Below are positions 24,682 through 28,833 of a DNA stretch of 64,000 nt, piece after piece. The first letter of the stretch is position 1; every line of letters starts with the position of its first letter. The position numbers and the translations under genes are program-made. The stretch comes from Planctomycetota bacterium (GTDB lineage Bacteria > Planctomycetota > UBA1135 > GCA-002686595): assembly GCA_012959525.1 (NCBI GenBank), contig DUDB01000017.1, positions 62,845 through 126,844 of the forward strand. Direction: 5' to 3'. The notes beneath the pieces are model-generated. The model was not told the origin of the DNA. It made no database searches and worked only from the letters and a program-made list of their open reading frames with translations.

Positions 24682-26079
24682 TCAGTTCGTGAAGGTCACG
24701 TTGAGGCCATCGGACAGGTTGTGGCCTGCTCCGCCGCCCGGCTTGTCCCGGTACCAGAATTGGAAGTTCATCATCGTTCCGGCCAGGATCGCGCCATTGC
24801 CTGAATCCATGGGCGGCTGGGTGAAGTCCGTGGCAAAGGTGCCCAGTCCGAATATGGAGGTTTGTACTGCGGGCAGACGGAACAAGCCGAGGCTACCGGG
24901 ACCTACACAGCGCACCCCATTACCCAAGGGGATGTTGGTCTGGTCGGGTCCATAGAAGAACAGTCCGAACTGGCCCACAGGGCAACCCGAGGCCATGAGT
25001 ACAAAATCATTGGCCGCATAGGAGGTGCTGCCGCTCCAGGTCATCACGGCTCCGGCCCCCGCGCTGTTGGGCGAGGTTGTGCAGTAGTTGTTGGGCGGCG
25101 GAGCACAGGGGTCGTGGTTCTGGGCACCGGGCGGGATGTTGATGTTGCCGCCGGGGAAGTTGCCCGTGTCCGGGATCCCGTAGTAATTGAGTCCGATGAG
25201 GTAGGGAAATGATGAGTCGAGCAGGCTGTCGAGGGAGGCCACGTAGCCGTAGGTGCCAGCGGGGTACTCCGGTGTCACCATGAAGCGGCCGTTGAAGGGG
25301 TCGAGGTCCCCGCCGCCCGTGAAGGCGTGGTCCTCGATGTACAGGCCCAGCGGATACTGGTTGCTGACGTTCGGCCCCCATAGATTGGGCGGTAGCTGCG
25401 TTCCGTCAGGCAGGGTGTCGCGCTGCACCATGCCGAACCGGGGCTGGTAGCCACTATCCAGTCGGCGGACCGCGCTGCTCGCGTCCATCGGATCGTCGTA
25501 GCCGTATGGGCCGTAGATCGGGTAGCCGTCAAAGGCCCAACCGATGATGGGCGAGTGCCCGCTCCCATCGTCACCCAGTTGCACCTGCAGGCAGTTGGGG
25601 ATCTGGTGGTAGTGGTAGACGCCCGTCATCTGGGGGTGACCCAGGCAGGAGTCGAAGGAAATGGCCTCGGCCACGATGGCATTGCGGTTCCAGGTTTTCT
25701 TGTTCTGCCAGGAGAAGCCGTCCTCTGGCCCGAACAGGGGCACGCCGTTCACAAAGCTCCCGATGGGACCCAGGGGAGTCTTGAGGTTGTTGGAGGCCGG
25801 CACCGGCGTGCGCGGGATGCGGTACAGGTGCTGCTGCTTCTGCGCGTCGTTGGGGTTGCCCGTCCAGGGGCCGATGGGGTGGCTCGGTATGCCCGTGGAC
25901 TGCACGTAGACGTTGTTATTGGTGTAGTCCACCTGCTGGACGTCCGCCAGGATGCCCTTATAGCCTGTGATGCCATCGCAGTTGACCATCCAACTGTCCA
26001 GGTCCGGCGCGGCGGCCAGAGCGATGCCGGTGGCGATGAGGGCGGGCAGGATGAGGGATTTCTTCATGGATTTCTTCAC
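24682..26079 (-). CDS. YHYH-domain secreted protein with planctomycete-type C-terminal beta domain
   Basis: Exported protein of 465 residues (GTG 26079; ATG 26067 is equally possible). After a signal peptide (core 'LILPALIATGIALAAA') comes a YHYH domain of about 280 residues: 'CLGHPQMTGVYHYHQIPNC' holds the name-giving motif, followed by 'GWAFDGYPIYGPYGY'. The last 130 residues form a separate beta domain ('MTWSGSTSYAANDFVLMASG', 'GQFGLFFYGP', 'GNGVRCVG', 'MNFQFWYRD') of a type I know from many planctomycete exoproteins, perhaps for surface attachment. The His-rich motif suggests metal binding, unproven. It is the last gene of an operon, five bases after the di-haem peroxidase. Confidence 0.85.
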   Translation of the reverse strand: MKKSMKKSLILPALIATGIALAAAPDLDSWMVNCDGITGYKGILADVQQVDYTNNNVYVQSTGIPSHPIGPWTGNPNDAQKQQHLYRIPRTPVPASNNLKTPLGPIGSFVNGVPLFGPEDGFSWQNKKTWNRNAIVAEAISFDSCLGHPQMTGVYHYHQIPNCLQVQLGDDGSGHSPIIGWAFDGYPIYGPYGYDDPMDASSAVRRLDSGYQPRFGMVQRDTLPDGTQLPPNLWGPNVSNQYPLGLYIEDHAFTGGGDLDPFNGRFMVTPEYPAGTYGYVASLDSLLDSSFPYLIGLNYYGIPDTGNFPGGNINIPPGAQNHDPCAPPPNNYCTTSPNSAGAGAVMTWSGSTSYAANDFVLMASGCPVGQFGLFFYGPDQTNIPLGNGVRCVGPGSLGLFRLPAVQTSIFGLGTFATDFTQPPMDSGNGAILAGTMMNFQFWYRDKPGGGAGHNLSDGLNVTFTN

Positions 26080-26083
26080 GGTT

Positions 26084-27298
26084 TCAGGAGTCCGAATCCA
26101 GTGGGGGCAGGAGTTCGGAAGGAGGGGGCGGGCTGGAGAGCGACTGAAGGAACGCCTTCAGGGCTTGGAGTTGCGAGCCGTCGAACTGACCGGCTTCGAG
26201 GACGCGCTTGGCATCGGTGTGGCTGCGTGCGGGTGCGTCGGAGAGAGTCGAATAGTGTTCGAGCACCTCGTCCAATGAGGCGTAGACACCGTTGTGCATG
26301 TAGGGCGCGGTACGCGCCACGTTGCGCAGCCCCGGCGTCTTCCACTCGCCCCGTTGGTGAGGCGTGCGGTTCAGGTAGGCCAAGCGCTCGCGCCCGGCTT
26401 CGACGTCGTCAGAGTGTTGGCCGCGACCGTTGAAAGGATCGGTCAACAATCTGCCGACCCCCGCATGGCGCGCGGGTTCGGGCGCGCCTTCCCGGGGGAG
26501 TTCGACATCGTGGAATTCCATGTCCGACAGCAGGGGCCCGTGGTGGCAGAGGTGGCAGCCGGCCTCGCCGAAGAACAGCTTGGCGCCCACGATGGCGAGC
26601 GGGTCCAGGGCAGCGAGGTCCTCGGGGTCCCCTGTTTGTAGTCCGCTGACGAACTGATCGAATGGCGTGGCGGCCGTCAGGATGCGGCCCTCGAAGGCGG
26701 CCAGGGCCTTGCCCACCTGGACGAACACGCGTTCGGCGGTGAGGGTCGCGCTCAACTCCTGGGGGGCGGGTCCGAATGCCTCCAGGTAGAGCGCGCGCAG
26801 GTCCGGGTCGGTCAGCACCAGCTCGGCCACCTCTTCACGGTTGCCGCCCATCTCCTTGGGGTGCTCGATGGGCTGCAGGGCCTGGGACCACAGGGAGTCC
26901 GCTCGCCCGTCCCAGAACTGCCAACGGTTCAGGGCGCTGTTCCACAGGGATGGCGTGTGCTTGTCGACCTGCTCCAGCCCTACGGCCAGGGCCTTGCCAT
27001 CGGTCCAATCCCGGGCCGGATCATGACAGGAGGCGCAGGACAACTCGCCGTTGCCCGAGAGGCGCTTCTCGTAGAACAGCGCCCGGCCTAGGCGGAAGGC
27101 CGCATCGTCGTGGAACACCTTGTTGGTCGGATCGCTGGGAGCGGGCAGGTCGGCGGTGCGTAGCAGCCTGGCCCACTCCTGATCGCTGAATTGGGCCCGC
27201 AGTGCTTGCCATTGGGGACCCGCAGATTCGGATCTCAGGCCAAAACTGGCCAGGCCACCGGCAACAGCCAGGACCGTGAGTGAGGCGACGATGCGCAT
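26084..27298 (-). CDS. Di-haem cytochrome c peroxidase/MauG family protein
   Basis: Periplasmic di-haem enzyme of 404 residues with an N-terminal signal anchor. Haem motifs are CASCH (88-92) and CHLCH (248-252). Trp97 just after the first motif lies where MauG-type enzymes have the electron-relay Trp. The segment 'WKTPGLRNVARTAPYMHNGVY' near 320-339 is the family C-terminal signature. Such enzymes either reduce hydrogen peroxide or oxidatively modify a partner protein (MauG, MbnH). The ATG directly follows the stop of the upstream gene and is preceded by GAGGTG at suitable distance. Its neighbour, the YHYH protein, is a possible partner (inference). Confidence 0.9.
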   Translation of the reverse strand: MRIVASLTVLAVAGGLASFGLRSESAGPQWQALRAQFSDQEWARLLRTADLPAPSDPTNKVFHDDAAFRLGRALFYEKRLSGNGELSCASCHDPARDWTDGKALAVGLEQVDKHTPSLWNSALNRWQFWDGRADSLWSQALQPIEHPKEMGGNREEVAELVLTDPDLRALYLEAFGPAPQELSATLTAERVFVQVGKALAAFEGRILTAATPFDQFVSGLQTGDPEDLAALDPLAIVGAKLFFGEAGCHLCHHGPLLSDMEFHDVELPREGAPEPARHAGVGRLLTDPFNGRGQHSDDVEAGRERLAYLNRTPHQRGEWKTPGLRNVARTAPYMHNGVYASLDEVLEHYSTLSDAPARSHTDAKRVLEAGQFDGSQLQALKAFLQSLSSPPPPSELLPPLDSDS

Positions 27299-27784
27299 CT
27301 AGATCTGCACCTCGAACACTACGTTGTCCCGCCGAATGACGAAGGAGTCGCCCAGATTCTCGCGCCATGCGAGGGCCACCCTCAGCTCCCATGCGCCTTC
27401 CATGTGAAAGAGCATGCCCTGGACCTGGTAGCGGCCGTTCCCCAACGGGGTCACGCGGGGTGTGCGCACCATTCCGTGGCCGTGGCTTGGCATCCAGCCG
27501 TCCACCTCAAGGGTCAGGTCGGCCTCGGGGCCCAACACGTCCAGGACGATCTCAAAGGGCTCGTTGATCGGGATCGGGTGGGGTTGCGACGCCCAGCGCA
27601 CCTGATAGAGGTTGCTCTCGGTGGAAGTGAAGGGCCGCACCGGCTGTCCATCCTGGTAGATCCCCGGCTGCCTCTCGCCCGAGCAGCTCGCCACCAGAGC
27701 GCCCAGTACAAGCAGGAGCCTGCAGGGGATTCCCCGCTTGCGCCGTGTCCTGCTGATGTTCTTGGGTGGTTCCATGGCTATCAC
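27299..27784 (-). CDS. Small FixH/YtkA-like lipoprotein
   Basis: Lipoprotein of 161 residues. The signal sequence ends 'VLGALVASC', a lipobox. The mature part is an immunoglobulin-like beta domain: 'PIPINEPFEIVLDV', 'LEVDGWMPSHGHGM' and 'GMLFHMEGAWELRVAL' follow the pattern of YtkA-like/FixH-type proteins, in which a His and Met-rich loop can bind copper. The GTG at 27784 overlaps the upstream stop as GTGA and is chosen for that reason; ATG 27775 would remove three residues. Co-transcribed with the selenoprotein candidate and the di-haem peroxidase. Confidence 0.7.
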   Translation of the reverse strand: MIAMEPPKNISRTRRKRGIPCRLLLVLGALVASCSGERQPGIYQDGQPVRPFTSTESNLYQVRWASQPHPIPINEPFEIVLDVLGPEADLTLEVDGWMPSHGHGMVRTPRVTPLGNGRYQVQGMLFHMEGAWELRVALAWRENLGDSFVIRRDNVVFEVQI

Positions 27785-28833
27785 TTCCCGTCCCGGTCCA
27801 GCCGGCGGCGGGCCCGGTCCTTGTCCAGCCGTCCGGGGTCGGTCACGGGGATGACGGTTTCCCAGCTCACGCCAGCCCGCTTGCCCGCGCGCACGTGATC
27901 ACGACTGCTGAGCACTGCGCTTACTTTGTGTCCTTCGACGGCTTCTTGGAGCAGCTTCTCCAACTGCGCCTTTGAAGCTCGCTCGGCGGCTGTTCCCAGG
28001 AGCTCAGCGCCTTGCCCCAGGGGAGCAGGTGACAGCGATACGTAGCCCGACTCCGGGATGGCGGCCCCCTTCTTCATCCCTTCCAGCGCGCGGACGTCGG
28101 CCGCGGTGGCGTGCGCGTAGTGGACCCGGCCGACCCACTCGTCGCTCCAGGCGACCTCGATGAGGAGGTCTGTCGCTTTCTTCTTTGTTTTCGAGGGAAC
28201 GCTCGGGTTCAACCGGACGATCAGGGGACGGTCGTCGCAGGCGGCTACATTCAAGGCGAGCCGCAGGGTCGGATAAGCGGGCAGCTGTTGTGAGCGGAAG
28301 GTCTTCGTTCGTTTGGGGCCGACCTCTTGCGCCAGTCCCGTCAGGCGCTCGGCCATCTGGGCGGCGGTCTTGAAGACCATGCCGGGGGAGCGGCCCGTCT
28401 TGGTCAGGCGTTCTTTTCCGTCAGGACTCAGTAACGCAAACACCGAGTTCTCCAGGTTGCCGAGCCGGCCACGGAACAAGGACAGCAGCAACTTTCCCTC
28501 GGCGGCTGATTCATAGGTTGCGGGCCGGACGCAGACAAAGGCTCGCGAGGCGGTGACCACCGCCGGGTCGGAGAGGAACGTGGCGTCCGCCTCCTGGTAG
28601 CCGGGTCACCACTTGCCCGGCACCGCGCGGCAGTGGGGGGCAGCCGACATGATCATGATGGGTCGTTTGGTCCTTGCCGCTTCGGCCTTGGCCTGCTCCC
28701 AGGAGCCCATCCAGGCGACGGCCGGTGGCCGCTCGGTGGGATCCTCCTGACCCGCGCGCATCTCGGCCGACGGCAAGGTGATCTCGGGGCCGGAAGACAG
28801 GGCCAGGAGCGGGAATAGGATGGGATGGAGCAT
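27781..28833 (-). CDS. Thioredoxin-like protein with in-frame TGA, candidate selenoprotein
   Basis: One frame runs from ATG 28833 to the stop at 27781, interrupted only by TGA at 28606-28608 (codon 76). The first part has a signal-like N-terminus and the opening of a thioredoxin fold: 'SWEQAKAEAARTKRPIMIMS' then 'AAPHCRAVPGKW'. After the TGA the frame continues 'PGYQEADATFLSDPAVVTA' and 'SRAFVCVRPATYE', the pattern following the active site in thioredoxin-like proteins. The fold spans the TGA, which favours readthrough as selenocysteine over a real stop. The TGA is followed by C, and a small GG-loop hairpin lies downstream (28574-28595). The remaining 200 residues are unrecognised. A pseudogene or a separate short gene starting at GTG 28560 are alternatives. 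Confidence 0.7.
28574..28608 (-). promoter_or_regulatory. Candidate bacterial SECIS-like hairpin after in-frame TGA
   Basis: Minus-strand UGA is at 28608-28606. Downstream, AGGA (28595-28592) can pair with TCCT (28577-28574) and GGC (28591-28589) with GCC (28584-28582), leaving an apical GGAC loop about 18 bases after the UGA. Bacterial SECIS elements are short hairpins at this distance with G in the apical loop. The stem is short and bulged, so this is suggestive only. Confidence 0.45.

Follow-up and report, generated by a model that had tools for sequence, protein, structure and literature searches.

The locus considered here raises the question of whether a TGA inside an otherwise open reading frame is a lesion in an ordinary thioredoxin-like gene or a codon for selenocysteine (Sec). 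It lies on the minus strand of a 64,000-nt stretch of a Planctomycetota genome, hereafter the window. The original prediction described a single frame continuing across one TGA (28606-28608, codon 76) with C as the next base, and named the gene a candidate selenoprotein; both the frame and the UGA-C context are as described, and C follows the TGA in 61 of the 63 members of the family that were aligned. A gene caller reading TGA as stop would yield just a 259-residue ORF (28560-27781), whereas the full frame ends at a terminal TGA at 27781-27783. On comparative sequence grounds, the in-frame TGA is almost certainly a real Sec codon, and the gene very likely encodes a real selenoprotein and redox enzyme. 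The features on which the argument turns are collected in Table 1.

Table 1. Features of the proposed selenoprotein gene and its downstream neighbors, in window coordinates.
Feature	Position	Strand	Basis or remark
Proposed selenoprotein gene	28833-27781	minus	ATG at 28833, 350 codons plus TGA stop; open except for one TGA; homologues with the same TGA
Likely N-terminal export signal	28774-28833	minus	Hydrophobic N-terminus, here and in many members
Domain 1, thioredoxin-like, Sec76 just before helix 77-87	28324-28716	minus	Thioredoxin_7, AF2, Foldseek
Cys68 codon, loop Cys 8 residues before Sec	28630-28632	minus	Candidate resolving residue
Proposed Sec codon TGA, residue 76	28606-28608	minus	TGA in 63/63 aligned members
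SECIS-like hairpin of window copy, shifted register	28570-28594	minus	Consensus register would be 28569-28589
Domain 2, thioredoxin-like, without conserved Cys	27835-28302	minus	AF2 pLDDT 90, Foldseek, alignment
Next gene, YtkA-like lipoprotein	27299-27775	minus	PF13115, 31.8 bits; start set by sister-species comparison
MauG-type di-heme cytochrome c peroxidase, neighbor	26084-27298	minus	PF03150, 148.8 bits

The gene belongs to a family with homologues in 54 of 151 related genomes. Across the phylum, 60 of 392 genomes were positive (E <= 1e-6), 53 of them strongly, and among some 85,000 species genomes scanned there were 59 family loci, mostly in Planctomycetota, where members include Phycisphaerae and Pirellulales. 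Outside the phylum, members occur in Verrucomicrobiales, Candidatus Melainabacteria/Obscuribacter, a cyanobacterial MAG, a Proteobacteria MAG and Chthonomonas; of these, sequences of the first two form coherent groups in the tree, and the single MAGs could be misbinned. The TGA stands at the same column in all 63 distinct aligned members, which represent many genera and several phyla, and further TGA-bearing members were found beyond these.

The host genome (4.04 Mb, 84 contigs, 93% complete) contains the machinery that the original prediction had named as a check, selA (485 bits), selB (357 bits with its C-terminal part), selD (350 bits) and tRNA-Sec (73 bits, anticodon TCA by ARAGORN), all on one contig, C26. 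The host selD (C26:108006-108935, locus L107) itself has an in-frame TGA, so that SelD is probably a selenoprotein too. Because 137 of 151 genomes at the level of the order have selA, correlation of the family with selA is uninformative within the order, and the phylum is the informative level: selA was detected in 50 of the 53 strongly positive Planctomycetota genomes vs 192 of 339 others (Fisher p = 1e-8). The positives without detected selA (G229, G411 and G456) are all fragmented drafts; the copies in G229 and G411 carry the TGA, and the G456 match stops short of the site.

The downstream hairpin of the original prediction is present in the window copy, beginning 11 nt after the TGA with its apical loop 21-22 nt after it, but by itself it is no better than chance (shuffle z = -0.44). 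The significance of the hairpin comes from covariation across the family, not from the window copy. The 60 nt downstream of the TGA align without gaps, and in the nine-pair family hairpin 84.1% of cells are paired, with changes on both sides in eight of the nine pairs. Double-change cells number 48, vs 12.0 (sd 2.6) in shuffles, none of 500 shuffles reaching as high; sliding one arm of the hairpin lowers pairing to 34-52%, and RNAalifold independently recovers the same stem. The apical loop is small, AGUUU or AGUGU in most members, and lies 24-25 nt from the TGA, in agreement with the published bSECIS model, which has G in the first two loop positions and a spacing of 16-37 nt (PMC13188914). 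The published rules are passed by 60 of 63 members vs 48% of control codon positions, these being GC-rich genes. Relative to the sister species, the window copy has GCC for GGG in the stem, a difference that costs it three consensus pairs; its predicted fold takes a shifted register, at -11.7 kcal/mol, that satisfies a relaxed bSECIS model, and an Rfam search of the window gave no match. Since the window hairpin breaks the consensus register and does not exceed chance, recoding may be weaker in this copy.

Two explanations would dispense with Sec. In the view from a single genome, one stop in an open frame, with a hairpin degraded relative to that of the sister species, could mean that an ordinary thioredoxin-like gene has suffered a nonsense mutation or that a base was miscalled. 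The 63 TGA-bearing copies come, however, from independent assemblies, one of them the complete chromosome of the cultured strain Pla163 (CP036290.1; L087), and this refutes a pseudogene or sequencing error for the family. The sister-species copy (L018 = L047, isolate ANT-40), 82-83% identical to that of the window, has the same TGA, and dN/dS between the two (Nei-Gojobori) is 0.21 upstream of the TGA and 0.15 downstream; thus the part past the TGA is under purifying selection at the protein level. A true remnant, in genome G129, looks different, with about 61 codons and TGG at the site, and decay or error is a highly improbable account of the window gene. The UGA might instead be read as Trp or another residue, through read-through or a variant code, and near-cognate read-through of UGA as Trp does occur in other bacteria. 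Here, however, TGA also terminates the selenoprotein gene and other genes of the window, so the code is standard, and the complete Sec machinery, the covarying hairpin and the way the family tracks selA all argue against Trp. With TGA a normal stop and the sel genes present, such recoding was rejected, its probability being minimal. A Sec reading, by comparison, is supported jointly by the TGA in 63 of 63 members, the sel genes, the family covariation and the dN/dS after the TGA, and the original candidate stands on this evidence.

With Sec preferred, the nature of the protein can be considered. An AF2 model with Cys in place of Sec (pLDDT 86) has helix 77-87 starting right after residue 76, and its nearest solved structures by Foldseek are PDI-type and thioredoxin-like proteins, so that both the predicted model and the matches point to a thioredoxin-like fold for the Sec domain. 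The C-terminal part modeled alone (pLDDT 90) is also thioredoxin-like (best E 4e-3, TM to target up to 0.67), and has no conserved Cys in the family alignment. An active and an inactive thioredoxin-like domain probably form a PDI-like pair, resembling the a-b tandem of PDI, fragments of which are several of the best Foldseek matches; unlike PDI, the family lacks CxxC, and the similarity is one of fold only, with full-length TM of 0.2-0.3. At the sequence level, a PDB search gave nothing significant. The window copy scores 24.6 bits with Thioredoxin_7 (PF13899), below the 27-bit Pfam gathering cut-off, and 24 of 30 members match this model at E <= 0.1.

The usual family motif is P-x-C-x6-W-U-P-G. 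Invariant in the 63 aligned sequences are W41, P58, G73, W75, U76, G78, R103, E108 and E112; P66, C68 and P77 are each conserved in 61, and C101 in 62. In L098 and L100 the loop Cys is displaced toward the N-terminus by one and three residues, and K stands in place of P77. A dithiol CxxC or UxxC active site is absent, the family having U-P-G-Y/K/F. Distant paralogues or homologues (L167, L168 and L169) retain U in varied surroundings, and L168 has no Cys in the loop. Two of these, L167 (in G015) and L168 (in G071), are divergent paralogues that read VPGxWU followed by NATD or TASD and lack the Cys of position 101.

Whether this is a separate family or a divergent branch of a known one depends largely on comparison with VPGUxxT type 2 (NF041383, hypothetical protein OS_HP5), an exported thioredoxin-like domain that is common in the same bacteria. 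NF041383 is the nearest NCBIfam model, matched by 15 of 30 members at E <= 0.1 (best 3.9e-5), and in both groups Sec lies at the start of a helix at equal spacing to an LSxP segment, so that the Sec positions align. The window copy scores 16.2 bits against the 275-bit cut-off, however, and the family reads VPGxWUPG[YKF], with W before U and an inserted loop holding a Cys of its own 8 residues before Sec, whereas VPGUxxT proteins have VPGU directly before the helix and, in the members read, UxxC. VPGUxxT also has Cys versions (L115, L123 and L127), of which the family has none among the genomes searched. A branch of VPGUxxT is therefore an unlikely description. Among 101 relatives, VPGUxxT itself is above cut-off in 27 (loci L109-L128), with Cys in some and TGA in others; two in-frame TGAs occur in many of these matches, and the other may specify a second Sec. 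The Trx7/PDZ domain-containing (seleno)protein NF041199 likewise combines a Thioredoxin_7-type domain with Sec, and matches weakly (best E 0.0056); the family is far under its 300-bit cut-off, and NF041199 is cataloged with a CxxU motif. Against the June 2026 release of NCBIfam, the window copy is under every cut-off tested, other members matching the same models weakly, and the family motif is not among the 119 families of a 2026 review (PMC13188914). Judged against these two catalogs, the family is apparently uncataloged. Its kind, the bacterial thioredoxin-like selenoprotein, is known; what is new, as far as tested, is the combination of no UxxC, a loop Cys and no Cys form.

The original prediction had looked for homologues with Cys or TGA at codon 76; those found were of the TGA kind only, so that the case is more unusual than anticipated. 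Cys homologues at the Sec site are usual for bacterial selenoproteins, though not strictly defining. Among strong site-spanning matches in the Planctomycetota genomes searched no Cys version occurs, all having the in-frame TGA; the exceptions among strong matches are partial pieces that stop short of the site and the G129 remnant. This remnant (L162:926-1108), in which TGA has become TGG, has lost the remaining frame and retains the hairpin sequence GGACAGGAGTTGCCTGTCC. The 150 Planctomycetota genomes in which selA was not detected yielded no Cys version either. Stop-free distant matches in G433 and G360 were rejected as Cys forms, being generic thioredoxin-like proteins, and G261 showed no family-like frame. 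The peptide patterns of the genome scan and of a viral scan included a Cys codon at the site, so that Cys forms were directly sought; phyla other than Planctomycetota were covered by these exact patterns only, and the searches were confined to DNA. Plasmids and viral contigs yielded no relatives of the family.

In an earlier survey (PMC1794560), GrdA, selenoprotein A of glycine reductase, stood alone in having no known Cys homologues; such homologues of GrdA were reported in 2025 (PMC12013277). It shares that former status with the family described here, and no match between the two was seen. According to the deep-Sep authors, no known selenoprotein now seems to be without Cys homologues, and one that did lack them might escape their method (PMC12013277). 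On a reading toward which the balance tips slightly, the chemistry of the family depends on selenium, and for that reason Cys versions are absent from every genome and the family exists only as Sec; the arrangement calling for selenium would be a single Sec at the helix start whose partner Cys sits in a loop apart from it.

A pathway for synthesis and catalysis can be proposed. The machinery and the recoding hairpin of the family are established from sequence, whereas insertion itself is a proposal: tRNA-Sec(UCA), charged via SelA and SelD, would be brought by SelB to the UGA, as directed by the predicted 3' stem-loop. The hydrophobic N-terminus suggests that the protein is exported. A redox function is likely, peroxidase activity and thiol-disulfide exchange being about equally plausible. 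Sec76, at the first helix of domain 1 and in the place of the attacking Cys of thioredoxin, would attack a peroxide or an oxidized thiol. As the second Cys of UxxC is replaced by Tyr, Lys or Phe, the oxidized Sec would be resolved either by Cys68 of the enlarged pre-helix loop, forming a selenenylsulfide, or by an external thiol; the chances that Cys68 takes this step are evenly balanced. L168 keeps Sec without the loop Cys, so that Cys68 is not the resolving residue everywhere. Domain 2 would be redox-inactive and perhaps bind substrate, as in PDI a-b pairs.

Downstream in the same orientation (24682-27775) lie genes for the YtkA-like lipoprotein, the MauG-type peroxidase and a YHYH protein. 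The original prediction had the selenoprotein frame end in a GTGA overlap with the next gene. In the sister species, the corresponding GTG frame runs into a stop after 15 codons, and a 5-nt gap precedes the start of the next gene, an ATG equivalent to window 27775; the overlap is not conserved, and GTGA coupling was rejected on this comparison. Nor is gene order maintained in the family, no neighbor cluster occurring in more than 9 of roughly 54 loci compared, and for this reason the MauG, YtkA and YHYH neighbors were not used to propose a function or substrate.

Because selenoprotein discovery leans on Cys versions, families that exist only as Sec tend to be filtered out, as the deep-Sep authors note (PMC12013277). 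If confirmed, the present family would mean that the selenoproteomes of Planctomycetota have been under-counted, and would let the question of why some chemistry should need selenium be tested directly.
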